In this document: piece by piece, positions 27,092 to 53,570 of the stretch
Numbering within the stretch: position 1 is the first letter of the stretch
How the letters are laid out: each line of letters starts with the position of its first letter
DNA from: Ashinkailepas kermadecensis
Taxonomy: Eukaryota; Arthropoda; Thecostraca; Neolepadidae
Assembly (NCBI GenBank): GCA_034440615.1
Contig: JAOTOM010005102.1
Span: 434,001 to 498,000, forward strand
Reading direction: 5' to 3'
Length of the DNA: 64,000 nt
Made by a program: the position numbers and the translations under genes
The notes under the pieces: generated by a model
Told to the model about the DNA's origin: nothing
Seen by the model: the letters and a program-made list of their open reading frames with translations, nothing else
Databases searched by the model: none

Positions 27092-27432
27092 AGCTATCAT
27101 TGAGGAGGCGCTACCACGCCAGCCAAGCTCCCGTGGGAAATATTTTATATAGGTGAATATATTGTATGGTGCATGGAGAGATATACAGCTGTGTTATCAG
27201 GAATATAGAAATGAAATTGGAAAAGGGCAGGGCAAATCAGATCAAATGAGGTCTGCTTACGTCAGGTCATGTCAGGTCAGGTCATGATAGGTTAGGCTAG
27301 GTTTGGTGGTATTTGGTTAGGTTGGGTGGGGTAGGGTTGGGTTAGGTTAAGTTCGGTTAGTGCAGATTCATTATTTTCGTGTTGGGTTGGGTCGGGTTGG
27401 GTTAGGTTATGTTCGGTTAGTGCAGATTAATT
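27092..27432 (+). repeat. array unit U11, internally deleted, left part
   Basis: At about 27,092 the sequence jumps from the unit end (GCATTGAGGTA) straight into the CACGCCAGCCAAGC module, so hairpins, microsatellite and core are missing. A ~60-bp duplication around GTTCGGTTAGTGCAGATT (27,350-27,430) follows. The unit is then broken by the 14.9-kb insertion and its remainder resumes at 42,385. Confidence 0.8.
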
Positions 27433-28415
27433 GGTGACATATCAGAATGTCCACAGCTCGTAATGTCCACAGCTCGCAGTGTCCACAAATTCATAATGTC
27501 CACAGCTCATAGTGTCCACAGGTCACAATGTCCACACGTTCATAACTCCCACAAATCACAATGTGCACAGCTCATAATGTCCACAGGTCATAATGTCCAC
27601 AGCTCGCAATGTCCACAGGTCATAACGTCCACAGCTCACAGTGTCCACAGCTCGTAAGTACCACAAGCTCACAACGTCCACAAGTTCATAATGTCCACGA
27701 ATTCATAATATCAACGCGTTTGTAATGTCCACAGGTCATAGTGTCCACGAGCTCATAACGTCCACACGCTCATTGCGTTCACAGTTCATAATGTCCACAG
27801 CTCATAATGTCCACAGTTCATATTGTCCACAGCTTATAATATCCACAGCTCACGACTTCCACAGCTCGTAATGTCCACAGTTCGTAATGTCCACAGGTCA
27901 CAATACCCACAAGTTCATAATGTCCACAGTTCATAATGTCCACAGGTCACAATGTCCACACCGTGTCCGCGAAAATATGCTCCGTGAAATCATTTTCGAC
28001 CTTATCGTACTGGCGTGGCAAACCGGCAAATTTAGAGACCTCTAGTTCAACTCTAGTGAACAGATGGCAGGTCGATGAGTTCGTGCAAAATGCGGCAGGC
28101 CGAGGAATTCATACCAGACTGTGACTTGTGATCCAAATTGGATATTTTTGTACTTTGGTTTTGAGCCTGACATGTTTAGTCCTTATCGATGGATCATAAA
28201 TCGACCGACTATTGTCACTAACTTCTTAAATAAAATGTGATCGAGTGTAGACCCATTGGTAGCTTTCCGATTCTCCTTCATATTGGTGGGGCGATCAAGA
28301 AGTCGACCCGCTAACTTTTTGTTTCTAAACCGAATGGCATGAAATCTAGTGGGCATTATTGACGCCTGGGGACCTGTTCACGCTGAAAGATTCAAGATAA
28401 TATCTCTTATGGAAT
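27433..28415 (+). repeat. left inverted arm of the giant element
   Basis: 17-bp minisatellite (to ~27,965), then about 450 bp of single-copy sequence. Islands shared with the right arm in reverse complement include AACAGATGGCAGGTCGAT (28,058), TTTTGAGCCTGAC and the GACCCGCTAACTT block. Similarity fades near 28,415. Confidence 0.82.
27446..27965 (+). repeat. 17-bp minisatellite, left arm (about 30 copies)
   Basis: Consensus AATGTCCACAGCTCATA with frequent variation in the last six bases (GTTCAT, GGTCAT, GCTCGT). There is no spacer structure, so it is not CRISPR-like. Confidence 0.92.
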
Positions 28416-29960
28416 GTAAGTTGCGAAATGGTTATTACGAACATCTACGGGAATCCACAAGCGTTTACGGGAAATTACGAATGTGCCAGGGCCATTGCCA
28501 AAGTCTGCTGCACCTTTGAACGTTTGCGGTCCTTTATGTACGTCCACGGGCTCTAACGAACGTCTACACCAATACAACTAAATGTTAGCAAAAAATGAGT
28601 GAACAAACACAGTAAAATGCATAATTAACCAAATGCTTCGTAAACATCCCCACTCCTATAGCTCGGATGTATAGTTTTTCGAAGACAAATATATCAATAT
28701 CTCTCTTCAACGAGTCAAAATGCCGACCACGATCACAACCGAAGAATAACAGACACATAGGTAAGCACGCCATACGCGATTACTGCCCACATTTTCGTGC
28801 GCCTTTGGAGTGGACAAAACTAATCTTCCGATGCAGAAATATTGGTGAGCAATATTTTAACAGCGGTTCCTCTTCTGACGCCACAGGCACACACAATTCA
28901 CAAAAGTTGAAACACGCCTTTAGCGCGATAAAATGTATGAAGCCTCCGGAGACCCAATACCACGTTGGTTGGAAATTAAGGTTGGGATAGCAGTCAGGGA
29001 GTTCGAACAGAAAGGCGAAGGGATAAAATGATAAATGCATATTTTAGGTAGATTCGGTTAGATTAGAAACGGTTATGCAACATTTACCGGAAAGGTGTGC
29101 TAGGATACTTTTGCGGTGCTGTTAGATCTTCCACAAAATGTTGTCACTCCCCAGACACAAATAACACGTTGAGGTCATCCTGTGCTACTGACCTAGTGTC
29201 CCACTGACACTGGAAGTGATATTTAGCGCCGAAAGGCCATCATAGGTCGTTGGCCTAAGCTCACTCTGAGATCAGCCATTCATATGTTGCACATTAGCAA
29301 CGTCTTGCAACGATCTCATCGTTAACCTAGTTGTATGGGTACCGGCAAAGAACCGGCGCGTTTGACTGGTGCCGGCACCGGTATCGAATTTCGGACAATT
29401 TCGGTCAACATTTCCTGGTAGCGGCAAAGTACCAGCATTGTCAGCCCGGCCACCACTCCGATACCGCGGGCACTATTTCGGTACCGGTTGCCGCAACTGT
29501 TGTACTAAAATTTTACATTACGTTTGTGAATGTGGTTGGCGTTGAGATACGCCAGGTATATAACATTATCATATATTAATTGTATTACAACATTATTATA
29601 ATATTTCCGGGATATTATATACGCCGTCATAGCCGCCGGTGTATACCCAGAGATAGGTATAGGAACATTGGCTAAGACATAGGCAGGGGGGACCGTGGGC
29701 ACCATGGCACCCGCCCCCCCAAACACTTTTCGTGAAAGCTTAACATTAACCCCATGGCGATGTGCATCTAAGAATCGAACCCAAAAGGCCAAGTTGTAAA
29801 CAGCGAAGCAGGGTTTCTGAGGTTGGATAATTCCCCTGTCATTGACAGAACTCACGTGTCGGACCCCCACCCTCCACGCAACGGTGTCGCAAAGATAATC
29901 AAACCGAAACAACATTTAATAATAATCAGAATTAATGTGTTAATTAACGACGTTTTCAAT
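28416..29960. other. giant-element interior, no gene recognised
   Basis: Short frames only. 28,470-28,570 has degenerate ACGAACGTCTACGGG-like repeats. 29,150-29,260 has AGGTCAT and GACCT motifs like those inside the MITE at 38,775. 29,334-29,500 is rich in CCGGTA/GGTACCGG palindromic words. Confidence 0.5.
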
Positions 29961-29962
29961 TG

Positions 29963-30165
29963 CAATGGTTATTTAGCGTAGGCATCTCTCACGCCGTGCC
30001 CGCGAGGGGACAGGTCCTGCAGTTGGTAGCGGGATTCGAACCCACACAATATGGGGCACGGCCGTGAACAAAACAACAGTTGATGCATGTGCGCAAACGT
30101 GTAGACAACATTCGGTGCTAAATACAGGCTCACAAGCGTTGCTGGCACCTGGCCCGGGTTTCCCC
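29963..30165 (-). repeat. tRNA-related SINE-like fragment
   Basis: The minus strand carries a good pol III B box (GGGTTCGAATCCCGC, near 30,023-30,040) followed by a ~70-bp body ending GCCTACGCTAAATAACC. A convincing A box is not visible upstream, so this is a decayed or atypical copy; a tRNA gene is excluded by the missing cloverleaf. Confidence 0.4.
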
Positions 30166-30486
30166 ATGTAATTATATGACCCATTGACCCACCACTCATG
30201 AGAAGCGACACAATTACCGTTTTCTTAAAACTCGACTTTGCGCCTATCCCCTAACCACATTCCATTCTCGCGTTCCGAGCACGCTGGACACACCCGACGA
30301 CACTCCGTTGACCTCAGCCTTTTACTGGGGCTGCATATACTACATCTAGCTTGCCCGCCACTTGCAGCATTTTGCTGGCTGGAGTAAGTTCATGATGAAC
30401 CTCATATAGCAAACAAGCCACTCGCCAATGCAAGTCATCGTTTCTCGCGTGACCGCTAACTTATCCATAAGTTAGTTTCGTGTTGG

Positions 30487-32614
<2,128 letters not shown>

Positions 32615-32615
<1 letters not shown>

Positions 32616-34003
32616 TCTCATAGTGTGCACAGAATAAAACATGACCTTCAATACACCAGGAGGTACTGAGTTTGAATGCAAGAACAATGACATAGGTTAT
32701 ATTATAGTACTCAACGTTTCGGACAGTTGCCAGCGTCAGGAGTGATGCTCTAAAAAATGGATAACGGCAAAACCCGTGACAAAATACACGTGAAGTACAG
32801 AAAAATATCCTCAGTGCTGCAGACACTCACAAAAACTCACAACGAACCACAAATAGGGAAGTATTATCCACCGGCACATCATTAAGTCAAAGCAGATAAC
32901 CTACTCTAAATCGTACTGGAAAAAGCTGGAACCGGAAACAAAGCCAGGCGTTCAGTATTAAATCCTCTCTGAGGGAGAGTGAGTTAAATCTATTTTAAAG
33001 CCCATATTTCCTCAGGGTACCTGTGCAATCAGATAACCTACTCGTAAATGAGCCGGAAACATTGTTGGGTGTCTAGTACTAAATTATCGCTGAGAAAGTA
33101 TGAGCCGGAAATATATTTAGGCCAATATCTCCTCATGCCACCTTAACAATCAGATAACCTGGTACTAATCCCTCAGAGAGGATTTAGTACTAAACGTATG
33201 GCTTTGTTTCCGGTTACAGCTTGTTTACAGTGTGATTTAGAGTAGGTTATCTGTTTTGATTTAGAGGTGTGCCGGTGGATAATGTTTTACTATTTGTGGT
33301 TCGTTGTGAGTTTTTGTAATTGTCTGTAGCACTGAGGAGGCTTTTCTATATTCCACGTGTATGTTGTCACGGGTTTTGCCGTTTTAATTTTTTTTTAAAC
33401 ATCACTCCTGACCAAGGTTATATAAACAAGATAGAATATTCCGCTCGAAAAAGGGGTGCGAGACATTAGTGCCCAAAAAGCACTGGATGACATCATCCGG
33501 CTTGCATATGTGCTGACTATCCGAGGTTGCGATTCAGCATTGTCTATGGTTGCCATTATGGAGCATTGTTATGGTAATAGGTGAAGTCCTAAATGAAATA
33601 GATAAAGTCCCAGCAGACGTTCGGAATGCAAATACAAAAAGAAAGGAATGCGTTGATATCGCCGGATGTTGCGCAATTTTTGAGACTTTTAACTGTAATA
33701 ATCACATCCGCCACCGCTCCGCACTATCATGTCAGCCAGGCTGCGAGTTAGTTTACATCGTTGAGATCGGTTGCTATAGTTCTACACACTGTACGCCGTC
33801 TGACGTCACAAGTATTGGCCAATGTGCCCCACTTTTGCTTGTGTTATACAGCCGGAATTCACCCCCCCCCCCCCCTGCTCCTGACGCTGGCCACTGACCG
33901 AAACGTTCAGTACTATAATATAACGTGTGTCATTGTTCTTGCATTCGAACTCAGTACCTCCTGATATATTGAAGGTCGTGTTTTATTATGTGCACAATAT
34001 GTC
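32615..34003. repeat. palindromic foldback element with ~330-bp arms
   Basis: The left arm (about 32,615-32,970) matches, in reverse complement, the right arm, which is split into 33,160-33,412 and 33,878-34,003 by a later insertion. Shared landmarks: GTGCACAGAATAAAAC against its complement at ~33,990, AACGGCAAAACCCGTGACA against 33,366-33,384, and ATTATCCACCGGCACA against ~33,270. The centre has three CAGATAACCT-headed repeats of about 115-135 bp (32,895, 33,031, 33,152). No coding capacity; probably a non-autonomous transposon. Confidence 0.75.
33413..33877. mobile_element. hAT-type non-autonomous insertion in the foldback's right arm
   Basis: The 465-bp insertion is flanked by direct repeats CTCCTGAC (33,405-33,412 and 33,878-33,885). 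The left arm of the same foldback gives the uninterrupted site. Ends CAAGGTTATATAAAC and C-run + TG match the MITE at 17,006 (CAAGGCTATAGAAC ... C-run TG), so the two look like relatives. Confidence 0.75.
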
Positions 34004-35400
34004 TAAACCCCAGGAACATCTTAGGGACATTCTTCGCCGTATTAAAACCATCTCGATCATCCAAACTGCTGCGCAGTGCGGATGCGACCGAACTATGTCT
34101 CAAAATTGCGGAGTTAACTTGAATTTCATGTTGGTTAGCAAGCTGTAAAACAACTGACGGAATTTAATTACTATATCAAATAACCAACCCTGACAGTGGC
34201 TGACACTTTCCACAGCAGGTCGATGCTCATGTGCCTTGCATATAGTGCCATGTATTTGAAGAGGTATTGCAACGATGTTTTTTATTCGAAAGTTGAAAAC
34301 CTATAATTATTGTTCAAATCAGGTATTTTGTTCCCAGTCAAACCCATCAAGACTCTGGCTACGATTGGCGACTCAACTACTCCTACTCCGACTCCAACAA
34401 TTTTTCAAGTGAGTCGACTTCACCATAAAGCCGCCAAATTTTGGCTGATTTCTGAGTCAATTCATACTCCGATCGGAATCAAGAACAAGCCTAGTAAAAA
34501 AATTACATGATGTGCTTTTTAAATGTACATCGAAATCACCTGTTGACTTTAACGTCCTAAACAAACTTTGCAGAGATGTTGCGGCGAGTACATGACTGAG
34601 GAAATAATGGTACCACGCGATAGCTCGTACTTGTACCTGCGCCACTTTAAGTATTAGCTCATTAGATCCAATTGGCCCAAATAATGCAATAGACGTTATG
34701 ATTCGGGGTATAAATTCGCGCGCCAGTCATGTTATATATAAAGCTGCGCTACTTTTGTTGTCTCTGCTGAAGTGTTAAAAAGAAATGCCGAAAAATAACG
34801 CAACTTTGGACGGAGCTGCATGATTTAAGTGGCCAAATCCAAGAAGAGTAAGCATTTATGATAAGTGTTCTGACGTGATATTTTACGTTCCGCGTCAAAT
34901 TATCTGACACAGTGGCCATGCTCCTTATCGGGAAAAAAGTACGCCTCCCGTAGCTATCGGACCTGCGTGATATGCTAAACCTGGAACCCAGTGCGCCTGG
35001 CAGTCGCTATATCACAACAGGACCGGCGTTCTGTATCCACCAGAGCACGCATGCCGCTCGAAGGCATCAACTTCGAAGGTCGAAGGCCGGTCCATAAAGT
35101 ACATTATATATGGTCTTGAAATATTTATACATTGCTGAAAACGGAAAATTGGTTCCCGACCATTCCGCACTCCACACCTGCATAAGAAGTTGCAGCTCCT
35201 TCCTCCGTCAAAAGGTGGGATCTGGATGCACCGTAGTTGGGATGAAGGAATATTTGCGAAAAGAATCATCAAGTCATGTGTGGACGTCATGGGTGCAGAA
35301 TGAAGTGGATATAATCTGTATATCACGTTTTGACGTAGATTAGGTCATATGACCGACCCTCAAATACATTTTGAGAATAAATTGAGGTGCCCCCCCCCTC
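34004..35400. other. giant-element interior, no gene recognised
   Basis: Only short frames without motifs. There is a TATATATAAAG stretch at about 34,730, and the region ends in a short C-run (35,390). Confidence 0.45.
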
Positions 35401-35525
35401 TTAACTGAGGTCGTTCCGCTGCCACTGGCAGGGGCTCTTCTTGGTTGCACTCTGTGGACACAATTAACTAGTTAATGACCAAATTTGTCAATTAGCTTTC
35501 CCGGGAATGCTGAAAATGAACCTCT

Positions 35526-35720
35526 CTAATCCTTATAATGCTTGCCTGAGTTGTTTTTAAAGATGTCCAGGGTACTGCTACTTACAATGGAGTTTGATAG
35601 CTGATTCAAATGTTCAACTACCCTGTTGGTGGAGAATGACTGTCTTAACCTTGTCCTGCTATGGTTAACTATAAGTTTAAATTGATGACCTCTAATTGCA
35701 TACTTTCTATTTGTTATTAA
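35526..35720 (-). pseudogene. C-terminus of a CR1-like LINE ORF2 (fragment)
   Basis: The minus-strand frame from about 35,720 to a TAG at 35,526-35,528 encodes the typical C-terminal block of CR1/L2-type retrotransposon ORF2: IRGHQFKLIVNHSRT, then FSTNRVVEHLNQLSNS and IFKNNSGKHYKD before the stop. In the family, the RGH..KL and F.NRVV..WN.L motifs follow the reverse transcriptase domain; here W is replaced by L. It faces the larger LINE fragment at 36,040-37,900 head to head across a TA microsatellite. Confidence 0.78.
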
Positions 35721-35800
35721 TGTTGTTCATCTTCGTATTATTATACAAAGAAAGCTAATGGTAGCCTGCATTCAAACAATCTCTGGCTTCATATATTACT

Positions 35801-35805
<5 letters not shown>

Positions 35806-35887
<82 letters not shown>
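35806..35887. repeat. (TA)n microsatellite
   Basis: About 82 bp of pure TA between two LINE fragments of opposite orientation. Confidence 0.95.
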
Positions 35888-35892
<5 letters not shown>

Positions 35893-36039
35893 GGAACGGG
35901 CATGCGCCCCATTATGAACATAAAAGAGCCCTGGCTGGGCACAGGCTCAATATCCACGGGTCGGTCTTGTCCTGGTTATTGTTTTGATGAGCCCGTAGCA
36001 CTGATGCCAACTGGGCATTAGGGTGTAGTAGGCCAAAGC

Positions 36040-37900
36040 CGGAAGGGTTGAATCCCATCAGGAGGGGCTGCGTCCCTCCTGAGATGAGATTTAAAGCACA
36101 TGTATCAGGTAAAATTAAGGATAATCTAACAAAGGTTCCAAACTTTAACAGGGCAGACTTTGATAGCATAAGAGTGACTTTAGGTGACATTAGATGGGAA
36201 GAAATGTTCTGCAATTTGAATGCCTGCGAAATGTGGGAAAAATTCAAGTCTTACTTAAGGGAAGCTCAGATGAGACATGTGCCCCAAAAGCAAAGGCACA
36301 AAATACAAGTAGGAAAGCCGGCATCGCTTACACCAGATTTGAACAGAGCAATTAAGGCTAAGAAGGATGCATTTAGAATGTTGAAGGAAGCTTCAACTAT
36401 CATAAATCTAAGGAGGTATCAAAAAGCTAGAGATTCTGTAAAGCAGAAAACCAGAGCAGAAAAGCGAGCAAAAGAATTGGACTTGGCTAGAAACTGTAAT
36501 GGAGATAGCAAAAAGTTCTTTAATTTTACAAGCTGAGTAAAGTTTCTAGCACAGTGGGTCCACTGGAGGTGAACAACACTATATTGAGTGAGGATGTTGA
36601 GATGGTTGAGAAGCTCAGCAAACAGTTTAAATCAGTATTTACAGTGAAAGATATGACCAATCTGCCAGCCGTAGATCATGGGTCAGTGACAGGGGATAGG
36701 ATAAGTGATGTTGACTTGATTGATAGTGATGTTGTTCTCAATCATATCAGGAAAATAAAGTCAAACAATGCAGCAGGACCTGCTGAAATTTATGCTAGGC
36801 TACTGCGTGAAGCTGAAAAGGAACTGGCAATTCCACTTAGTGTAATATTTTGTAGATCAGTTTCACGAAATGAAATTCCAGAAGATTGGAAAATGGCAAA
36901 TGTAGTTCCAATTTTCCAGGAAGGCGAAAGAGGGAAAGTTGAGAACTATAGACCCGTAAAAATATTACACTAAGGCTGTCCCACATCCATAGGCTGCAAG
37001 ATACTTGAATCAATTATCAAGGATATAATGGTTAGTTTTCTGGAGGGAGACCGATTGATTCAAGATTATCAGCATGAGTTTAGAAAAGGTCGATCATGTC
37101 TCAAAAATATCTTGGACTTCTTTAATTTTGCTACAGACCAGTTTGATCGATGACATCAGGTTGATGTAGCATGTCTTGATTTCAGTAAGGCCTTTGATAA
37201 GGTGCCCCATAAACGGTTAATATGCAGTTTCCGGTCCATGGTATTGCAGGTAGCCTTCTAAAATGGATAGAGTTATGGCTTTCAGACAGGCAGCAGAGAG
37301 TGATGCTAAATGGTACAAAGTCATCATGGCAAGACGTCCTAAGTGGAGTCCCCCAGGGGTCAGTACTGGGACCACTATCGTTCATTATATTTGTACATAA
37401 CATCGAAAGTGGCCTAAGCAGTATGGTTTTGAAATTTGCCGATGATTTAGAAGGTCTTTAGGGCAATCACAGGGCAAAATGAGGGCCTCACTACAGAGGG
37501 ACTTGGATGAGCTGGTGAAGTGGTCTGAAAAGTGACAAATGAAATTTAACTTTGATAAGTGTAAAATCATACATGTAGGTAGACAGCATATCAGGGATCC
37601 ATACTTGATGGGTGGCCAAGTACTAGCTGTGACTCAACAGGAGAAGGATTTAGGTGTTATTTTGCGCACAAAATTGGAGGCATCAGAGCAGACTAAAGAA
37701 GCTAGGAAAAGAGCACTAAGAAGGCTTGGGGAAATAAATAGGAATGTATCGTACACAAGTGAAGAAATCATCAGGCAGCTTTACTGTGCCTATGTCAGGC
37801 CGCATTTGGAATACTGTGTCCAAGCTTGGTCCCCTAGCTACGAAAAAGATTGTTGGCTTCTAGAGAGAGTGCAAAAGAGGGCTACACAAATGGTTAGTGG
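36040..37900 (+). pseudogene. CR1-like non-LTR retrotransposon ORF2, internal fragment, disabled
   Basis: A decayed reverse transcriptase frame in several pieces. 36,048-36,536 is the linker upstream of RT. 36,554-36,973 has NHIRKIKSNNAAGPAEIY, PEDWKMANVVPIF and ENYRPVKIL (RT N-terminal blocks). About 37,155-37,215 gives ACLDFSKAFDKVPHKRL (motif A). 37,336-37,405 gives SGVPQGSVLGPLSFIIF (motif B), then FADD at ~37,440 (catalytic motif C). 37,539-37,890 gives FNFDKCKIIHVGR, EKDLGVIL and LYCAYVRPHLEYCVQAWSP (thumb). In-frame stops at 36,534, 36,971, ~37,151 and ~37,533 and frame changes kill it. Endonuclease domain and natural 3' end are absent; it stops abruptly after RATQMVSG. Confidence 0.9.
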
Positions 37901-38770
37901 TACAAGCGCCTTCGGCCCTTGCTCCGCTGCGGTAAGACAAAAAATTTGGCGTTGGTTTCATGTCAATCGGTCACATGGTTCGGCGGCTATGCCCATTTTA
38001 GTGGAATTTATTTTCCTGCTCCCGAATATTTATATTTACAGAATCTGTCCCGCGGAGGTGTCACCGCCGAGAAAGCGCGCGCACCCCATCGTTTTATCAC
38101 GGATAATAGTAAACGGATCGGAAACTCTTGGGCGGCACTTTGATGTTTGCGACCACCGACCGAAACTAGCGACATCTATCGGACGATCGCAGAAGTAATC
38201 CTGGATAGGTGGTGCGAAGGACACCCCATCGAAAAAGCTTGACGGGATGGGGAAATATAGCTGAATCGGCCATCTACCATGCGTCGTTTGAAAAAAAAAC
38301 TGTGCCTTCGGCGCCAGCCGGGGACGCATACTCCAGTAGCCGCCATCCCTTCGGCCGCCGTATAGAACTATGAAGCGCGTCACCAACTAACCTGTGCCGA
38401 CTAACTGAGGGAAACGGAGTGTCATGAGAGCCGGCAGAAAAACAAGGGAGAGCATCTGCCCCCCCCCCCCCCTCCCATTCCAGCCGTATATGCCTGGGAC
38501 TCGTCTGGGGAAGGCCAATTCCATTCCGATGCCCCCGCCCCACAAACAAAAATGCTGCTGATTGGCCAAAGACCGATTGGCTGATTGGCCCTGGCAGTCA
38601 CATTTCCCCCTGAGGTATATTATTTGACAAACGAGGGGACCCTGAGCAGGCACAGGAGCACATGACGAAAATTGATTGGGCCGAGGGGCCCCGGAACAGC
38701 CATTGGAGCCCTCTGAGGAACTGTCAGGTGCCCCCTGCATGACCCCATTGCAGCTGCCACGTCTCCCATG
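37901..38770. other. giant-element interior, no gene recognised
   Basis: GC-rich repeat-like sequence with a CCCCCCCC run at 38,460. The minus-strand frames over 38,036-38,832 show no motif and overlap each other. Confidence 0.45.
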
Positions 38771-38774
38771 TTAA

Positions 38775-39664
38775 CCCTCGCACGCCCGGGTGGGTGGGTA
38801 GATACCCCCCCCCCCATGACGTTTCGTACCACACCCTAAAACGGTTTGCACTAGAGCTCTGACATTTGCAATACCTTAAGCTACATCAATTTGACACATC
38901 CTCCAAAATTATCAGGTCAAGATCATGTCAGGTCAATGACCTACAACACTTTTAGTGGCAGCATGTCGGACCAAACTGCGGAAAATCTCACATATTGTGA
39001 CAATATAGATACACGATCGATCAACAGATTGCATATCGTTCTCAATAACCATTTCACACATTGAAGCATACCTTACCATAATGACCCTAACAAGGTCATC
39101 ATAGGTCTCCGACCGACTTCACCTGAAAATTGACTTTGACCTTTGAAATCACATGACAAATTTATCGCAAAAGCTATAAAATTGTCAGTACCATGCGTTG
39201 GATACATATTTGGTGTGGCGAATGTCAGGTGCAGGTCATCCTAGGTCAGTGACCTATGCAGTGCCGATAACATGTGTGATAATATGGTAAACTGGCTTCT
39301 TTTGCCTCCGGTTTATCAAATTTTGAACCGTCACTTCAGGTCATTATAGGTCAAGGACTAAATTGATCTACAAATCAGTTTTGGCCGCGCAGTATAATAA
39401 TAATTGTGCACTATAGTTCTTGAAGTCTTTGTGCCGCCTGCGTTATCAATTTGTATTTGTTTGACCTGATATGACCTCTACGTTGACCTCGGATCAAAAA
39501 AGGACTGAACCAATTCCTTCTTAGAATCACCCAATGTATCTGTTGCCGTTATGTATATGGGGAGGGGTAGGTAACCTACCCACCTCCCCGGCCGGTGGGT
39601 AGGGAACAATCCCCCCCCCTCCCCGACCGGACGAAGTTTACGCGGAGCATCGGCCGTGCGAGGG
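38775..39664. mobile_element. TTAA-type (piggyBac-like) MITE with AGGTCA direct repeats
   Basis: The left end TTAA|CCCTCGCACGCCC (38,771 on) mirrors the right end GGCCGTGCGAGGG|TTAT (39,652-39,668): 10 bp of perfect terminal inverted repeat (CCCTCGCACG) and a TTAA target site with one change on the right. piggyBac-group elements duplicate TTAA and usually start with CCC; Kolobok also uses TTAA. The 890-bp interior has no ORF. It has several AGGTCA half sites, including AGGTCATCCTAGGTCA (39,234) and AGGTCATTATAGGTCA (39,339). Confidence 0.65.
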
Positions 39665-41060
39665 TTATGGTCGTCGGCGGCGGGCTGCTGGTGGGTGAGG
39701 CAGCTAGATTAGGTGCCGCGACCCATCGGAATAACGACGCCATGCGAGTACTGGTTTGCAAATGTTCAATTTTGGGCACCCATAATGCGATATTATTGGG
39801 AATGATATCAATTAAAAAAACAAGCTATTGACCCATCTCCATAAAAAAAACTCGGAAGTTCTATCATATTATATTCTTCTGAAATATGTAGCGACGGCAA
39901 CCCGATGAGAACCGAATCAGACAATTGCTATGCTTCAGGGTGGCCAGAAGGGCCCTGTAGTCCTGCAGCAGCTCCTCACTCCTAGCTCCCCACTCGCACC
40001 TATGTTATTTACTCCTACCTGCGCTACAACTGCCCTATACTGGTTCTCACTGGTGGCCTGTGTCACCACTGGCACCAAGTCTTTGACCTTGGCACCAGGC
40101 CTGGTGATGCACCGATCCTTTCACTTAATTGTAGTGAGACTGCTGGTAGGGAGGGCGGGTGGGGCGGGGGTCAAAACCCCCCCGGGGCAAAAGGGGTTTT
40201 TGAGGGGGGGGGGTTGTTGGGGGGGGGGGGGGGGGGGGGGGGGGGGAGACCAGCAATTAAGTTGGGTTTGTCGGCGGGGAAAAAAAAATTTTTTTTACAA
40301 TCTTTCAAAATATTCAGCCATGTACCTTAGGTAACGATTGCAATATTTCTGTCAGACAATTTCTCCTTCGGACTGCTCCTCAGCCTCAAATCGGACATCC
40401 TCCAGCCAAAACCCTTAGTTTCAGAGCTGCATATGCAGGTGAAAATTGGTACATTTACGGCGCCCCCTTTGACCAATGCTTCAAGCCAAGCAAAAGCTCA
40501 AACAGACTAAATACCACTGATTCATATTTTATCGTGATTTAGAGTAAATAAGTAAATAACTGGGCAATGCAATGGAGAATTACATGCTTCACGTGATCCA
40601 AAACAGATAAGTTGCTCCCAAAAACACACACAACGCGCCATAAACGTAGTACACCACGCCATGCGTTTAAATGTTCCCTGAAACAAAGAAATGAAGGCAG
40701 AGATGTTTTTAATTAATTCCTTACCGCCACAAAGTTCCATGCAGCAGAATCACGGTTCTCTGGCTTCTCCAAAAAGCGGAAATTGGCCGAAACTAAACCA
40801 CGCTTTACTCTCCAACGCGGGAATGTGCTGCTGGAATCAAACAATATCCTATCCAGGATTAGCTTCGGCCTCCAACCGCTAGGTGGCAATAGCCCGTCCT
40901 TGGTCGCCGATTCCGGGGAGTTTCCTATCCGTTTACTATTATCCGTGGTTTTATCGACGGCTGGCGAAACTCGTGGGAACGGGTGGTCAGGCCGGCTCCC
41001 AGCTTGAAGCGCAAACTGCCGGCGAAAAATGTCGTCTGGTAAGGGTTGCGGGCATCAACG
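39665..41060. other. giant-element interior, no gene recognised; G-run
   Basis: 40,206-40,246 is an almost pure G tract (about 40 nt), the strongest G-quadruplex candidate in the window, or possibly a sequencing artefact. The sequence around 40,878-40,930 (CTAGGTGGCA ... GGAGTTTCCTATCC) recurs at 43,852-43,915. No gene evident. Confidence 0.45.
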
Positions 41061-41175
41061 ATTGCAACCAAATTATTTGCGATGGGGAAAATCCGAAGGA
41101 ACCGTGGGCATCACAAAACTTGGGGCTATCTGCGCATGCAACTTTCTCCCCGAAATGTCATCGGGCAGTGGTGTG
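41060..41175 (-). repeat. diverged copy of the tandem-unit core-end module, inside the giant element
   Basis: The reverse complement reads GCATGCGCAGATAGCCCCAA, then GATGCCCACGGTTCC and GATTTTCCCCATCG. This parallels the array block GCACGCATAGCCCCAACT, GATTCCCACGATACC, GATTTTCCCCATCG (for example 13,185-13,240). It is far more diverged than any array copy, and on the other strand. Confidence 0.6.
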
Positions 41176-41304
41176 GGGACAGTGTAAAGCGGAGCTGGTA
41201 AACATTTTACGACCGGGCCCCCGGGCGGCCGGGCCGATGGCCTGATGTGGCAAATCGTCGGTTGTGCCGGGCAGCCGACCAAAATATCACAATAACTTTA
41301 ATTA

Positions 41305-42376
41305 TGTCAGGTATATTGTCTTACAATTTTTAGCGTGAGCAAGTCCCAATGCATCGATTGCGTCCACCAAATTACATGTCATTCGGATCAGAAACAAGAA
41401 GTTAGCGGGTTGGTTTCTAGAACCCGCCACCAATACGAAGGAGGATTGGGACGTCACCAATGCGAGGGTTAAGACTAGATCCCATTGCATTTAAGAATTT
41501 AGCCACAAGAGTAGGTGCATTTACCTACTATGCATCGATATTGACTAAGAAACGTCAGGCTCAAAATAAAACGCAAGCCAATATCCAACTCGGATTACGA
41601 GAAACTTGAATGAACTTCTTGAATGAATTCATCGTCCTGCAGCATCTCGCGCGAATTAATCGACCTGCCATCTGTTAACAAGAGGTGAACCAGAGGTTTC
41701 TACGTCTTCCCGTTTGCCGCGCCGTCAAATGCCATCAGGTCGAACATGATTTTACGTAGCATATTTTCGCGGGAACGGTGTGGACATTGTGACCTGTGGA
41801 CGTTATGAACTGTGGACATTATGAACTTGTGGGCTTTGTGACCTGTGGACATTACGAGCTGTGGATATTACGAGCTGTGGAAGTTGTGAGCTGTGGATAT
41901 TATAACCTGTGGACAATATGAACTGTGGACATTATGAGCTGTGGACGTTATGAACTGCGAAAATTATGAACGTGTGGACATTATGAGCTCGAGCTCGTGG
42001 ACATTATGAGCTGTGGACAATATGACCTGTGGACATTATGAACTCGTTGATATTTTGAACTCGTGGATATTATGAACTTGTGGACGTTATGAGCTTGTGG
42101 TACTTACGAGCTGTGGACACTGTGCGCTGTGGACATTGTGACCTGTGGACAGTGCGAGCTGTGGACGTTATGACCTGTGGACACTATGAACTGTGGACAT
42201 TGTGAGCTGTGGAAGTTATGAATATGTGGACATTGTGACCTGTGGACACTATGAGCTGTGGACATTATGAATTTGTGGACACTGTGAGCTGTGGACACTG
42301 TGACCTGTGGACACTGTGACCTGTGGACACTGTGACCTGTGGACACTGTGACCTGTGGACATTATGAATGCCCCCC
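41305..42376 (-). repeat. right inverted arm of the giant element
   Basis: Reverse-complement counterpart of the left arm in the same order: single-copy part 41,305-41,777, minisatellite 41,778-42,370, terminal C6. It is slightly longer than the left arm because its minisatellite has more copies. Confidence 0.82.
41778..42370 (-). repeat. 17-bp minisatellite, right arm (about 35 copies)
   Basis: The same unit on the opposite strand (GTGGACATTATGAGCT on +). Near the outer end there are several perfect copies of GTGGACACTGTGACCT in a row (42,290-42,357), which points to local homogenisation. Confidence 0.92.
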
Positions 42377-42384
42377 GATTAATT

Positions 42385-42837
42385 AATATCGTGTTTCCTC
42401 GGTTCAGATCAGCCAACACGTTATGGGACTGAACTAGACCTGATACAACAGTATGGGGATGGAACGAGGGCACAGCTGGTCGTGTCGAGAACGGGCATAC
42501 AATACGAGCCGGGATGGAGCAGGGCAATGACAGAGGATGGCGACCGAACTTCACCAGCATGTAGGTGGTAGCCCAAGCGGTATTGTCGAGCAAATTGACT
42601 ACGGTGTCGTAAGCAGTACACAGATAGCTGATATCAGTACACTGACAAGTGCACTGATAAATTGTGTCGAAACCGTGGGCTTGCATTAATAAATGCACGT
42701 GACTGAGCATATTTTAGGTACTTGTAAACGTGATCCCGACGCTGGATGAAATTCCGCGTCGATTTTGCTCATAGGGATTCATAGGGAGAAGCGAGGAGAT
42801 TGTCACGTCCTCCAAGCTCATATTGAGACCCGTTGAG
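42385..42837. other. resumed unit U11 fragment followed by unrelated DNA
   Basis: 42,377-42,416 is tandem-unit tail (GTTTCCTCGGTTCAGATCAG). 42,417-42,837 does not match other units and contains no gene that I can support; the unit end resumes at about 42,838 (GATCTGCTCGGGTAGGGGAC). Confidence 0.6.
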
Positions 42838-43290
42838 ATCTGCTCGGGTAGGGGACATGGGGGGTGGGTGTAATCTCCACTGTGTATGCGTTAGCTATGC
42901 ATTGAGGTACTTTTACGATTTTGAACACACCAACATGGTAGTGGGGTTGGTGTGCATCTAGTTCAAAATCGTAGCTATATGATCAACATGGTCGACGCGA
43001 CCTAAAGCCCAAATAACTAACTAACTAGTTCAAAATCGTAGATTTCGATTCAGTGACTAAGTCACGATAAATCTCTATCGGAGATTTAATACATGGCGGT
43101 CGGTTTTCTAAAGTTGTCGAAAAATGTTTGTCTGTGTGTCTGTGTGTCTGTATGTGCCGCTTCAACGCATACTGTGCCAAAACGGCCGAGCGGATTTCGT
43201 TCAAATTTTCACACGTGATTCGCCGGTACGGGGGACAGACCATGGCGGTGGTTTCGGGTTGCGCGTGTCGGGTTGCGCGTGTCAAAAAGA
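42838..43290 (+). repeat. last, truncated and diverged array unit (U12)
   Basis: The unit end plus the start of a further unit: hairpin at 42,917, a ~57-bp insertion that duplicates GTTCAAAATCGTAG (42,975-43,041), a changed second hairpin (43,047-43,073), a short GTCT/GTGT microsatellite (43,129-43,150), and core up to about 43,290 where GCGCGTGTCGGGTT is duplicated. It then ends. More diverged than any other copy. Confidence 0.82.
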
Positions 43291-47925: not shown

Positions 47926-49758
47926 ACGGGGGGAGGGGGAGGGAGGGGAGGGGTGCACGTCTGAACGGCCCACTGCCGGTGGGAGGGAGGGGTGCACGTC
48001 TGAACGGCTCACTCCCGGTGGGAGGGAGGGGTGCACGTCTGAACGGCTCACTCCCGGTGGGAGGGAGGGGTGCACGTCTGAACGGCCCACTCCCGGTGGG
48101 AGGGAGGGTGCACGTCTGAACGGCCCACTCCTGGTGGGAGGGGTGTACGTCTGAACGGCTCACTCCCGGTGGGAGGGGTGTACGTCTGAACGGCTCACTC
48201 CCGGTGGGAGGGAGGGTGCACGTCTGAACGGCCCACTCCTGGTGGGAGGGAGGGTGCACGTCTGAACGGCTCACTGCCGGTGGGAGGGAGGGGTGCACGT
48301 CTGAACGGCTCACTCCCGGTGGGAGGGAGGGTGCACGTCTGAACGGCCCACTCCCGGTGGGAGGGAGGGTGCACGTCTGAACGGCCCACTCCCGGTGGGA
48401 GGGGTGTACGTCTGAACGGCTCACTCCCGATGGGAGGGAGGGTGCACGTCTGAACGGCCCACTCCTGGTGGGAGGGAGGGTGCACGTCTGAACGGCTCAC
48501 TCCCGGTGGGAGGGAGGGTGCACGTCTGAACGGCTCACTCCCGGTGGGAGGGAGGGTGCACGTCTGAACGGCCCACTCCTGGTGGGAGGGAGGGTGCACG
48601 TCTGAACGGCTCACTGCCGGTGGGAGGGGGGATGCAGTCTGAACGGCTCACTGCCGGTGGGAGGGAGGGTGCACGTCTGAACGGCTCACTGCCGGTGGGA
48701 GGGAGGGTGCACGTCTGAACGGCTCACTGCCGGTGGGAGGGAGGGTGCACGTCTGAACGGCTCACTGCCGGTGGGAGGGAGGGTGCACGTCTGAACGGCT
48801 CACTGCCGGTGGGAGGGAGGGTGCACGTCTGAACGGCCCACTCCTGGTGGGAGGGAGGGTCCACGTCTGAACGGTTCACTGCCGGTGGAAGGGAGGGTGC
48901 ACGTCTGAACGGCTCACTCCTGGTGGGAGGGAGGGTGCACGTCTGAACGGCTCACTGCTGGTGGGAGGGAGGGATGCAGTCTGAACGGCTCACTCCTGGT
49001 GGGAGGGAGGGTGCACGTCTGAACGGCTCACTGCCGGTGGGAGGGAGGGTGCACGTCTGAACGGCCCACCCCGGTGGGAGGGTGCACGTCTGAACGGCCC
49101 ACTCCTGGTGGGAGGGAGGGATGCAGTCTGAACGGCTCACTCCTGGTGGGAGGGAGGGTGCACGTCTGAACGGCCCACTCCCGGTGGGAGGGAGGGTGCA
49201 CGTCTGAACGGCTCACTGCTGGTGGGAGGGAGGGTGCACGTCTGAACGGCTCACTGCCGGTGGGAGGGAGGGTGCACGTCTGAACGGCTTACTGCCGGTG
49301 GGAGGGAGGGTGCACGTCTGAACGGCCCACTCTTGGTGGGAGGGAGGGTGCACGTCTGAACGGCTCACTGCCGGTGGGAGGGAGGGATGCAGTCTGAACG
49401 GCCCACTCCCGGTGGGAGGGAGGGTGCACGTCTGAACGGCTCACTGCCGGTGGGAGGGAGGGTGCACGTCTGAACGGCTCACTGCCGGTGGGAGGGAGGG
49501 TGCACGTCTGAACGGCCCACTTTTGGTGGGAGGGAGGGTGCACGTCTGAACGGCTCACTGCCGGTGGGAGGGAGGGATGCAGTCTGAACGGCCCACTCCC
49601 GGTGGGAGGGAGGGTGCACGTCTGAACGGCTCACTGCCGGTGGGAGGGAGGGTGCACGTCTGAACGGCCCACTCCCGGTGGGAGGGAGGGTGCACGTCTG
49701 AACGGCTCACTGCCGGTGGGAGGGAGGGTGCACGTCTGAACGGCCCACTGCCGGTGGG
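47926..49758. repeat. 38-bp G-rich minisatellite, about 48 copies, in intron 1
   Basis: Unit: GGGAGGGAGGGTGCACGTCT followed by GAACGGCTCACTCCCGGT. Variants (CCC/TGCC, CTC/CCC, ATGCAGTCT without CAC) recur in blocks, a sign of internal duplication. Each unit carries GGTGGGAGGGAGGG, which has G-quadruplex potential on the + (coding) strand. The long Pro/Arg-rich minus-strand frames are by-products. Confidence 0.97.
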
Positions 49759-51180: not shown

Positions 51181-52511
51181 TCCCGGAGGCGAGTCGCGTG
51201 TTCTTCAACTACGGCGCCGCGCTGACGTTACTGACCTACGGCGCCATGGGCATCAGCTACTTCTACGGCCCTTACTCGGTCGACGCCTACCTCGCCAAGA
51301 GGCGCCAAAAATACCGCATTCACTACCTCAAGTCAAAGCTGAGCATAACGGAGGCGCAGAAGGCCGAGGCGGCCGAGACAGACTACGGCTACTACATCGA
51401 TGAGGAGATCGAAAGCCTCAACGACGACGGCGGGTACGAAGAGTACGACACGGCCCACGAATACGTCGAAGGAGCGGGCAACGACGACACCAGCTCGTAC
51501 ACATCGTACGACGGCCAGTTGGCTCGCAGGCGCGGTGCGCCGGCTGCCGCTGGCCGGCAGGGCAGCGGACTGCTGGGTCAGCTCCGTCCGCGAGCACCGC
51601 CGGTGGTCAGCCCCGCCAGCTGGCCGCTCCAGGCGCGGCACGCCGCCACTGCCAGCGGCCGGCTCCTGCCATCTCACCGCAGGCGCCTGGAGCGGCTGCC
51701 TTTCGTGCCGGCCGGCCAGCCGCAGCCGGTCCGCGCGGTGCGCGTGCGTCAGGGGCCGCTGCGGCCTGCCGTGCTGCGTCAGGGTCGGCCGAGAGCCGCC
51801 GCCCTGCGTCAGGGGACTCCGGGGCCTGTAGCCCAGCGTCAGGACCGGCCGGGAGCCGCCGCCCTGCGTCAGGGGACTCCGGGGCCTGTAGCCCAGCGTC
51901 AGGACCGGCCGGGAGCCGCCGCCCTGCGTCAGGGGACTCCGGGGCCTGTAGCCCAGCGTCAGGACCGGCCGGGAGCCGCCGCCCTGCGTCAGGGGACTCC
52001 GGGGCCTGTAGCCCAGCGTCAGGACCGGCCGGGAGCCGCCGCCCTGCGTCAGGGGACTCCGGGGCCTGTAGCCCAGCGTCAGGACCGGCCGGGAGCCGCC
52101 GCCCTGCGTCAGGGGACTCCGGGGCCTGTAGCCCAGCGTCAGGACCGGCCGGGAGCCGCCGCCTTGCGTCAGGGGACTCCGGGGCCTGTAGCCCAGCGTC
52201 AGGACCGGCCGGGAGCCGCCGCCCTGCGTCAGGGGACTCCGGGGCCTGTAGCCCAGCGTCAGGACCGGCCGGGAGCCGCCGCCCTGCGTCAGGATCGGCG
52301 GCCGTCTCCGGTCGCCGCGTCGGCCGCACACAGCGCCGCGGCCGGGGCGAACAGCGGGCCTAACCCGGCGCGTCGGCCGCTGCTGTCGGTCGGAGCTGGT
52401 CGGGCACCGCCTCGGGATCCTGCCGCGCCAGCGCCGGCGGGCACCACTGGGACGCCATCGACACCGCACACGGCCGCCGGCCACGAGCCAGACGCGCCGA
52501 CACGACGGTGA
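51181..52511 (+). CDS. exon 2 of the signal-peptide gene (hydrophobic segment, 20-residue repeats)
   Basis: Entering in phase 1 from exon 1, the frame reads VPEASR then a hydrophobic stretch FFNYGAALTLLTYGAMGISY (possible transmembrane helix, about residues 108-128). A basic KRRQKYRIHYLKSK segment follows, then an acidic Tyr-rich region (DYGYYIDEEIESLNDD, YEEYDTAHEY), then an Arg/Pro/Ala-rich tail with decapeptide-type repeats (RQGRPRAAAL, RQGTPGPVAQ, RQDRPGAAAL). The frame stops at TGA 52,509-52,511, but a good donor (ACG|GTGAGC) overlaps the stop at 52,508, so the exon may end at 52,507 in phase 2 and continue. With exon 1 the product is about 540 residues: a type I membrane protein or a secreted repeat protein. 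The repeat tail may be in a shifted frame if array copies changed length; the N-terminal 100 residues of this exon are the most trustworthy. Confidence 0.72.
51781..52290 (+). repeat. 60-bp coding minisatellite (8.5 copies)
   Basis: Eight copies plus a half, in register with codons (20 residues each), essentially identical apart from the first copy and a single C-to-T at about 52,164. Each copy is itself two related 30-bp halves ending in GCGTC. The identity implies very recent expansion or strong conversion. Confidence 0.97.
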
Positions 52512-53570
52512 GCCGCGCACACTGGGCACAGTCTCACCGTACATTGCTGCTGATGTCACAAAACTTGGCACAGTCGCACCGTACACTGCTGCACATGTCA
52601 CGACACTGGGCACAGTCTCACCGTACACTGCTGTACATGTCACAACACTGGGCACAGTCGCACCGTACACTGCTGTACATGTCAGACACTGGGCACAGTC
52701 GCACCGTACACTGCTGCACATGTCACAACACTGGGCACAGTCTCACCGTACACTGCTGCACATGTCACGACACTGGGCACAGTCTCACCGTACACTGCTG
52801 CACATGTCACGACACTGGGCACAGTCGCACCGTACACTGCTGCACATGTCACGACACTGGGCACAGTCTCACCGTACACTGCTGTACATGTCAGACACTG
52901 GGCACAGTCGCACCGTACACTGCTGCACATGTCACGACACTGGGCACAGTCTCACCGTACACTGCTGTACATGTCAGACACTGGGCACAGTCGCACCGTA
53001 CACTGCTGCACATGTCACGACACTGGGCACAGTCTCACCGTACACTGCTGTACATGTCACGACACTGGGCACAGTCTCACCGTACACTGCTGCACATGTC
53101 ACGACACTGGGCACAGTCTCACCGTACACTGCTGCACATGTCACGACACTGGGCACAGTCCCCGTACACTGCTGCACATGTCACAACACTGGGCACAGTC
53201 GCACCGTACACTGCTGTACATGTCACAACACTGGGCACAGTCGCACCGTACACTGCTGCACATGTCACAACACTGGGCACAGTCGCACCGTACACTGCTG
53301 CACATGTCACAACACTGGGCACAGTCGCACCGTACACTGCTGCACATGTCACGACATTGGGCACAGTCGCACCGTACACTGCTGCACATGTCACAACACT
53401 GGGCACAGTCGCACCGTACACTGCTGCACATGTCACGACACTGGGCACAGTCTCACCGTACACTGCTGTACATGTCACGACACTGGGCACAGTCGCACCG
53501 TACACTGCTGTACATGTCACAACACTTGGCACAGTCTCACCGTACACTGCTGCACATGTCACGACACTGA
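52512..53570. repeat. 42-bp minisatellite (about 25 copies) downstream of exon 2
   Basis: Unit CACTGGGCACAGTCGCACCG, TACACTGCTGCACATGTCAC, plus GA or AA. Some copies are 41 bp (TCAGA in place of TCACAA), which shifts frame, so long open frames on both strands arise by chance from the 14-codon period. It probably lies in intron 2 or the 3' flank. Confidence 0.96.

Follow-up and report, generated by a model that had tools for sequence, protein, structure and literature searches.

A giant foldback-like insertion in Ashinkailepas kermadecensis and the probable non-autonomous transposon family to which it belongs

Within the 64,000-nucleotide stretch of Ashinkailepas kermadecensis DNA analysed here (contig JAOTOM010005102.1, positions 434,001 to 498,000 of the forward strand; hereafter the window), a long sequence with inverted arms is found together with an array of 2.3-kb satellite units. 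This raises the question of whether the sequence was inserted as a single mobile element and, if so, how a unit of such a size has been moved. The explanation that we favour, at a probability of about 0.84, is that it belongs to a family of giant, non-autonomous, foldback-like DNA transposons, mostly 11-20 kb long, which a transposase supplied in trans mobilizes by cut and paste.

Boundaries, target site and arms of the insertion

The insertion covers 27,433-42,376 and is flanked at both ends by the 8-bp duplication GATTAATT, which occurs four times in total within the window, two of these being the flanks of the element. A single insertion with an 8-bp target duplication, as proposed in the first-pass annotation, was thereby borne out. 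The ends could be settled because the tips, GGTGACATATCAG on the left and ATGAATGCCCCCC on the right, recur elsewhere with different flanks. The outer features are as follows.

27,425-27,432, no strand: left target duplication GATTAATT, from the repeat of the right flank and the empty-site alignments
27,433-27,441, plus strand: left tip GGTGACATA, outside the minisatellite; its terminal motif GGTGACATATCAGAATGTCCACA recurs genome-wide
27,442-27,960, plus strand: left arm, outer domain, a 16-17-bp minisatellite, from repeat finding and unit spacing
27,961-28,403, plus strand: left arm, inner single-copy domain, sharing 76.7% identity with its right-hand counterpart
41,313-41,778, minus strand: right arm, inner single-copy domain, from the arm alignment
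41,779-42,368, minus strand: right arm, outer domain, minisatellite, from repeat finding and unit spacing
42,369-42,376, minus strand: right tip, ending in CCCCCC; its terminal motif TGTGGACATTATGAATGCCCCC recurs genome-wide
42,377-42,384, no strand: right target duplication GATTAATT, from the repeat of the left flank

The empty targets are units of the 2.3-kb satellite array within the window. All seven sites that had been named as empty copies (near 4,352, 9,002, 11,309, 19,633, 21,953, 24,258 and 26,571) indeed aligned as targets, each of them reading GATTAGTT, one base off from the duplication GATTAATT. Joining the flanks after removal of the element gave GCAGATTAATTAATATCG, as compared with GCAGATTAGTTAATTTCG in most of the array units. 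The weak point of the empty-site case lies to the right of the insertion, where the similarity to the array spans only 33 bp (42,377-42,409, 91%); about 420 bp unlike the array units then follow before the array is again found at 42,830-42,974 and 43,025-43,269.

Alignment of 27,442-28,403 with the reverse complement of 41,313-42,319 gave 81.0% over 1,007 columns (reported E 0.0), in agreement with the foldback-like inverted arms initially perceived, and an inverted similarity of 81% over 1 kb implies that the two arms could pair with each other within one strand. Each arm had been described as a 17-bp minisatellite plus a single-copy stretch; both domains were found, with the unit length corrected to mostly 16 bp (47 of 63 spacings, with 17 bp in 12 of the 63). 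CACA was invariant in all 47 of the 16-bp units, taking both arms together. A protein search using the translated minisatellite gave 27 candidates with none reaching E<=0.01, and one using an ORF of the window gave 3, none reaching E<=0.001. Viral contigs and prokaryote genome contigs, in which an animal repeat would hardly be expected, gave 0 matches each when scanned for exact patterns. As an impression by eye, 28,430-28,580 may hold degenerate minisatellite units.

Copies in the assembly and their interiors

In the 908-Mb assembly, at least 66 left ends (GGTGACATATCAGAATGTCCACA) and at least 64 right ends (TGTGGACATTATGAATGCCCCC) were found at no more than one mismatch each, with distinct flanks in nearly all cases, as compared with none for the reversed patterns. 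Further copies of the arms with their own duplications, which the first-pass annotation had suggested looking for, were thus present: 14 of 37 same-contig, properly oriented left/right pairs had exact duplications of at least 8 bp. One of these 14 elements measures 289 bp and the other 13 measure 10.7-19.6 kb. No exact 8-bp duplication was present in the remaining 23 pairs, two of them being near misses, and these pairs count against the favoured explanation. The duplications of the family are 8 or 9 bp, with five pairs fitting 9 bp if the right end is taken as six C. A smaller comparison of 14 left/right stretch pairs had three matched duplications and seven that clearly did not match. Across contigs, duplications matched in 14 cases, against a shuffled mean of 0.33, and contig ends or runs of 5,000 N occur inside copies, which together suggest contig switching. 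Three loci carried only a left tip of 40-58 bp, and at two of these three a host-flank repeat followed the tip. A complete solo arm with its own duplication, which had been put forward as something that would contradict a single element, was not seen at the loci examined in a non-exhaustive search.

The interior of the window copy comprises the following features.

28,404-31,772, plus strand: left part of the middle, common to type A and type B copies by copy alignments, with length varying around microsatellites
31,773-41,021, plus strand: type A middle by copy alignments; type B copies have a different, 5.24-kb middle instead
32,619-34,001, no strand: inverted-repeat element carried in type A copies, interrupted at 33,413-33,877
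33,413-33,877: 465-bp insert within that inverted-repeat element, with the duplication CTCCTGAC as read by eye from the alignment
35,991-37,910, plus strand: broken non-LTR reverse transcriptase fragment (RVT_1), from a Pfam profile scan
38,098-40,947, no strand: nested 2.85-kb element with 30-bp inverted ends and the duplication GTTTTAT
41,022-41,312, plus strand: right part of the middle, common to type A and type B copies by copy alignments

Among 20 fetched copy stretches, 12 had the type A interior and six that of type B, while two were cut by contig ends. The window copy had been thought to have accumulated 13 kb of other repeats; this was not supported, as other copies hold the same interior at identities of mostly 95-98%, and what was amplified is therefore the whole unit of about 12 kb. 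The nested 2.85-kb element, absent from both of the other copies where the site was read, was the only large interior block found to be missing elsewhere. The whole unit is hence present at other places with 8-9-bp target duplications, with both arms and middle being recurrent and with two alternative middles held within the same arms. The element accordingly has what characterizes the foldback type in structure, namely long inverted arms in which tandem repeats predominate and insertion with duplication at many places.

Across copies, left arms diverged from each other by 1.2% in the outer and 2.4% in the inner domain, and left from right arms by 7.8% and 23%, respectively. The left/right differences were equal within one copy and between copies in a test of 12 'copies', of which only four had a matching duplication (the window copy together with L010, L012 and L021; left/right difference within a copy 7.0-8.4%), so that some of the remaining ones may join ends of different copies. 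On the equality found in that same set, the idea that the arms of a copy exchanged sequence with each other once inserted was rejected. Judged at the level of sequence comparison, the copies show that left and right arms had diverged already, ahead of the spread of the family.

Source of the transposase and rival explanations

Pfam scans of the window copy in six frames, and of most of the type B middle, gave no transposase, in keeping with the early impression that none is visible; RVT_1 was the only Pfam domain that the window copy had in six frames, whereby a Polinton or virus was ruled out. A Helitron-type element was ruled out by the presence of target duplications and an LTR-type element by the inverted arms. 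Neither Rfam families at gathering score nor tRNAs were found in the window. Of six ORFs aligned across copies, one had variable sites skewed over codon positions (11/5/15), which counts against the favoured explanation, and the two ORFs in the left part of the middle common to both types varied evenly over codon positions (19 rows).

With regard to superfamilies, Mutator elements make duplications of 8-11 bp, a range within which the 8 or 9 bp of the family fall; a MULE transposase was found neither in the window copy nor in most of the type B middle, and of 39 MULE matches elsewhere in the assembly the nearest one sharing a contig with an end was 62 kb away. Merlin elements have 8-9-bp duplications and GG-type termini, which fit the duplications and GG/CC ends of the family, although the ends of the single Merlin element read differ. 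Pfam PF12762, which we take to be the IS1016-type transposase of the Merlin superfamily, had no match in the copies scanned, and none of its 31 matches elsewhere in the assembly was on the 82 contigs carrying a family end. The P superfamily, including Galileo, uses a P transposase with 7-8-bp duplications, and no P-type Pfam transposase was found in the copies scanned (the window copy and most of the type B middle). For hAT, where duplications are strictly 8 bp, the five pairs that fit 9 bp with a right end of six C argue against membership, and no hAT transposase lay between paired ends among the 150 matches listed of 791 candidates. Since duplications of both 8 bp and 9 bp occur within the family, a Mutator-like or Merlin-like enzyme is the most likely. 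Such a transposase, supplied by another element, would bind the tips and probably also the repeated units of the arms, cut the element out and paste it elsewhere, with the gap left behind being filled by host repair.

Could the element instead encode an enzyme that Pfam misses because of strong divergence or because introns break it up? Such autonomy would agree with the high copy number of the 12-kb unit, six-frame profile scans overlook short exons, and an intact gene may exist in some unread copy because most copies have been read only in part. The scanned frames are nonetheless without a Pfam transposase, the two shared ORFs vary evenly over codon positions, and the same arms hold two unrelated middles, leaving this explanation improbable.

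It is still less probable that a small foldback element landed here and grew to 15 kb through nested insertions at this one place. The interior does contain a retrotransposon fragment, an inverted-repeat element and the nested 2.85-kb element, but apart from the latter it recurs in copies at other places, which already contradicts such growth. We regard it as equally far-fetched that two solo arms, or two foldback elements, by chance came to flank 13 kb and then moved jointly. The 19% difference between the arms and the two different middles within them could be seen in that light, whereas in the window each end consists of just one arm, in one orientation, and the left/right difference is fixed in the copies compared, so that the two arms have moved together; the unit may nonetheless have been composite when it first arose. 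More tentatively than the trans-mobilized family that we prefer, and with the odds rather against it, a non-coding transposon of about 12 kb may have propagated intact and exclusively in trans, swapping whole middles of 5-9 kb between fixed, unequal arms, with the left tips of 40-58 bp being excision scars left by gap repair in which the empty homologue was taken up as template.

Relation to known foldback elements

The TU elements of Strongylocentrotus purpuratus reportedly have outer tandem repeats of about 15 bp and an inner single-copy domain, and are also said to have 8-bp duplications and varied middles within shared arms. All of these traits are found here when the descriptions are compared; the present copies are, however, much longer (mostly 11-20 kb), have duplications of 8 or 9 bp, and consistently carry one version of the arm on the left and another on the right. 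The FB element of Drosophila, likewise compared by description only, shares the long inverted arms of tandem repeats and differs by its 9-bp duplications. Galileo makes 7-bp duplications. Unlike the present family with its 8-9 bp, Galileo thus has these shorter duplications together with a P-superfamily transposase, while the long and internally repetitive arms are alike. For this P-superfamily element of Drosophila (PMC3688188, PMC3573991, PMC4079207), multiple transposase binding sites in those arms are reported by PMC3688188. The Tm1 Mutator/Foldback family of root-knot nematodes has (PMC3169594) arms with 13-15-bp tandem repeats, duplications of 8-10 bp (mostly 9), short asymmetric motifs outside the inverted repeat and two non-identical arms in one element, with some elements encoding a Phantom-type transposase. 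The tandem-repeat arms, asymmetric outer motifs, unequal arms and duplications within 8-10 bp are shared, in contrast to the mostly 9-bp duplications and to the Phantom-type transposase, none being found in the present copies. Tetris of Drosophila virilis (PMC4079207) has outer and inner arm domains, a variable middle, no coding capacity and 8-9-bp duplications in three complete copies, with tandem units of about 220 bp and a flanking domain outside them. The two-domain arms, variable middle, lack of coding capacity and duplications resemble ours, unlike the 220-bp units and the outer flanking domain.

The present family is a large and unusually uniform version of an already known kind of element. 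Foldback elements are usually a few kilobases in size and ragged. In the present genome, tens of copies exist of a unit of about 12 kb that is largely non-coding; their ends are clean, and empty sites, a miniature of 289 bp and abortive tips accompany them. The family thereby allows asking which sequences the movement of very large cargo requires, and how foldback elements grow without carrying an enzyme of their own.

The window copy and its family in the assembly

The window copy of the element comprised 14,944 bases (27,433-42,376) with GATTAATT on both flanks, and its architecture is that of a foldback transposon. The inverted ends claimed by the first-pass annotation were borne out by the arm-against-arm alignment it had asked for, giving arms of about 1 kb with 81.0% identity over 1,007 columns, and the empty sites it had described were likewise found, with the target uninterrupted at seven sites of the host array. 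This array is built of units about 2.3 kb long; on the right-hand side of the insertion its likeness extended for just 33 bp, followed by about 420 bp of unlike sequence and then array again. Near the right arm, at 41,026-41,158, some 100-130 bases were similar in reverse to a stretch of the host array units (71-74%, e.g. 13,175-13,294).

Repeats surrounding the insertion (window coordinates)
1,124-27,432 and 42,830-43,269: higher-order array, unit about 2.3 kb, with many units more than 90% alike and abundant TTAGG-like and TGTC tracts
47,941-49,758; 51,776-52,293; 52,519-53,569: long minisatellites of the right flank, with units of 38, 60 and 42 bp, respectively

Searching the whole assembly (G000; 907,663,968 bases in 4,689 contigs, here C with a number), we obtained at least 47 matches to the left arm (641 candidates, 40 scored). 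Allowing at most one mismatch, there were at least 66 left and at least 64 right ends, while neither end pattern gave any match in the assembly when read backwards. Almost every flank was distinct (62 different sequences for the 66 left ends and 62 for the 64 right ends). Twenty stretches were fetched inward from left arms (family loci, here L with a number), of which 12 had the interior of the window copy (type A, 31,773-41,021), six had a different middle between the same arms (type B) and two were interrupted by contig ends; the type A interior at L016 belongs to an adjacent copy in opposite orientation. The fetched pieces were 92-99%, mostly 95-98%, identical to the window element. The type B middle measured 5.24 kb in L012 and was 96.3-98.5% alike in L010, L013, L020 and L027 as far as those extend, and 96.5% alike in L009 over 3.3 kb. 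The left part of the middle, to about 31,772, and its final 0.3 kb are common to both types. In a second sample of 20 left ends absent from the left-arm match list, one lay past its contig's end; the remaining 19 were probed some 1 kb inward and gave element interior in 13 cases (95-98%), right arm in one, unrelated sequence in three and only N in two.

Target duplications and insertion sites

We paired left and right ends that lay in proper orientation no more than 45 kb apart on a single contig, which gave 37 rows, a few ends appearing in more than one. At least eight exact flank bases were shared in 14 rows, with sizes of about 0.29, 10.7, 11.3, 11.5, 11.5, 11.8, 11.8, 13.2, 13.5, 13.7, 14.9 (the window), 16.1, 16.2 and 19.6 kb, and two of the remaining 23 came close (one mismatch at C844; one extra base at C3456, judged by eye). 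When the right end was taken as six C, five of the 14 rows fitted a duplication of 9 bp and five one of 8 bp, with a shorter or changed C run in four, the exact length hinging on where this run stops. An earlier comparison of 14 left/right stretch pairs had yielded three matches (L010, L012 and L021) and seven clear mismatches (L011, L014, L015, L020, L023, L024 and L028); in the last four, the left arm of L022 was truncated, a different arm had been matched instead of the right end for L017, and no right end was found for L025 and L026. In the pair-row comparison, L017 (C3806) and L026 (C2851) did prove to have matching duplications.

Ends on different contigs also matched each other, in 14 cases, whereas 200 shuffles gave 0.33 on average and 3 at most; these 14 are not independent cases, because four involve one right end, on C213, and others repeat a flank. 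The left flank of L023 also equals the right flank of L028 over eight bases. Since contigs ended inside copies (C148 and C2793) and runs of exactly 5,000 N lay inside others (L009 and L057), contig switching in the assembly is likely; real recombination between copies is a possible source of such exchanged ends.

Eleven of the 66 left flanks were similar to the minisatellite of the family itself over 10 bases (up to one mismatch), two of the 11 sharing a single flank. Shuffled flanks gave a mean of 1.4 such cases and never more than 3 in 30 rounds, and random sequence from the window a mean of 1.7 and never more than 5 in 20 rounds. A preference for self-insertion is possible, and one of these flanks, at C3806, has its matching duplication to the right of the copy as well; rearranged arms could lie behind some of the others.

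Arms and interior of the element

Both arms of the window copy have a minisatellite outside and a single-copy part inside. The minisatellite had been noted with a 17-bp unit; the arrays held, but the predominant unit was 16 bp (47 of 63 spacings, with 17 bp in 12), and CACA was invariant in the 47 units of 16 bp, with adjoining bases almost so. Possible degenerate units were seen by eye just inside the left arm (28,430-28,580). Copy L010/L042 (G000:C4471) lies within a short TGTGGAGGTTATGA run, with units resembling the family's own repeat.

When the two arms of the window copy were aligned, they differed at 43 of 519 sites in the outer domain and at 103 of 443 in the inner one (Fisher p=1.4e-10); the two domains have had different histories. 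We compared 12 left/right sets, one of them from the window; four of the 12 (window, L010, L012 and L021) had a matching duplication. In the outer domain the mean difference was 1.2% among left arms and 2.5% among right arms (66 pairs each). Between left and right arms it was 7.75% within a set versus 7.81% between sets (132 pairs), and 7.0-8.4% within the four duplication-matched sets. In the inner domain, left arms differed from one another by 2.4% (66 pairs) and right arms by 1.8% (6 pairs), and left from right arms by 23% in the four sets with sufficient sequence. Because differences were small among left and among right arms and large between them, the two arms were distinct already in the ancestor of the compared copies, and among the 12 sets nothing pointed to exchange between them afterwards. 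The lower divergence of the outer domain may reflect constraint from transposase binding.

The middle of the element appears to be cargo rather than a gene. Six-frame profile scanning of the window copy (X at stops) detected RVT_1 alone, at 33.7 bits in one frame (cut-off 29.6) and below the cut-off, at 23.3 bits, in a second; in most of the type B middle (L012:500-5,450) RNase_H alone appeared, below cut-off at 21.4 bits. Eight open reading frames were tried for codon-position bias, two yielding no other copy and six having 11-19 rows; variable sites were about evenly spread over codon positions in five of the six and skewed (11/5/15) in one, within the non-LTR retrotransposon remnant (35,991-37,910). 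The remnant's stop at 37,459 was present in all six aligned rows, that at 36,534 in five of 13 and that at 36,971 in the window only (one of 12).

Elements nested in the type A middle (window coordinates)
38,098-40,947: 2.85-kb element with 30-bp inverted ends (CACGGATAATAG...), 7-bp duplication GTTTTAT and no coding match
32,619-34,001: inverted-repeat element, interrupted by a 465-bp insert

The 2.85-kb element was absent from both copies read at that site (L016 and C4466). The 465-bp insert (CAAGG...CCCTG), with an 8-bp duplication, CTCCTGAC, seen by eye, would be hAT-like judging from its ends.

Small derivatives, candidate transposases and family relations

One copy, L056 (G000:C4507:268,600-269,300), was a 289-bp miniature with both tips and the duplication AGTAAGTA, consisting mainly of left outer domain closed by the last right-end units; it may have transposed at 289 bp or lost its middle after insertion. 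Solo left tips of 40-58 bp, putative excision scars, occurred at three loci. At C4402 (L079+L081) a 40-bp tip was followed by the preceding 68-base host flank again, with two differences, before the host continued, CACAG preceding each flank copy; at C4128 (L080+L082) a 44-bp tip was followed by about 50 repeated flank bases with one difference, GGG preceding both copies. The 58-bp tip at C737 (L078), and at a second copy of that locus on C4408 (L083), ran directly into other sequence. At the two loci with repeated flanks, the few letters shared where the sequence switches suggest aborted gap repair with a template switch, and the base differences between flank copies would be consistent with the other homolog having served as the new template; the repeats could instead have arisen by tandem duplication and subsequent deletion. 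On C1748 of G000, two left ends lay 107 bp apart (near 72,960 and 73,067) with CCCCCCGATCC ahead of the inner one, as if the right end of a tiny copy and part of its duplication had been joined to a full copy.

Candidate transposase domains in the assembly comprised 39 MULE matches (80 candidates scored), at least 150 hAT matches (791 candidates) and 31 matches to PF12762, which we take to be a Merlin-type domain (59 candidates). Among the matches listed, none of the three kinds lay between paired ends, and the nearest on a shared contig was 16 kb outside them. The inverted ends of the one Merlin element read were unlike the family tips. Merlin elements produce a mix of 8- and 9-bp duplications, and the mix of these lengths in the window family fits either Mutator-like foldbacks or Merlin. 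It agrees with the Mutator-like foldbacks Tm1 and Tetris as the relevant passages describe them, with duplications of 8-10 bp in 45 of 53 cases for Tm1 (PMC3169594) and of 8-9 bp, from three complete copies, for Tetris (PMC4079207).

In a search of the literature readable without subscription, no published description of the window family was recognised. Its elements are large, their non-coding cargo is nearly uniform, two alternative middles occur and the unequal arms are fixed, which makes the family an unusual variant of foldback transposons.
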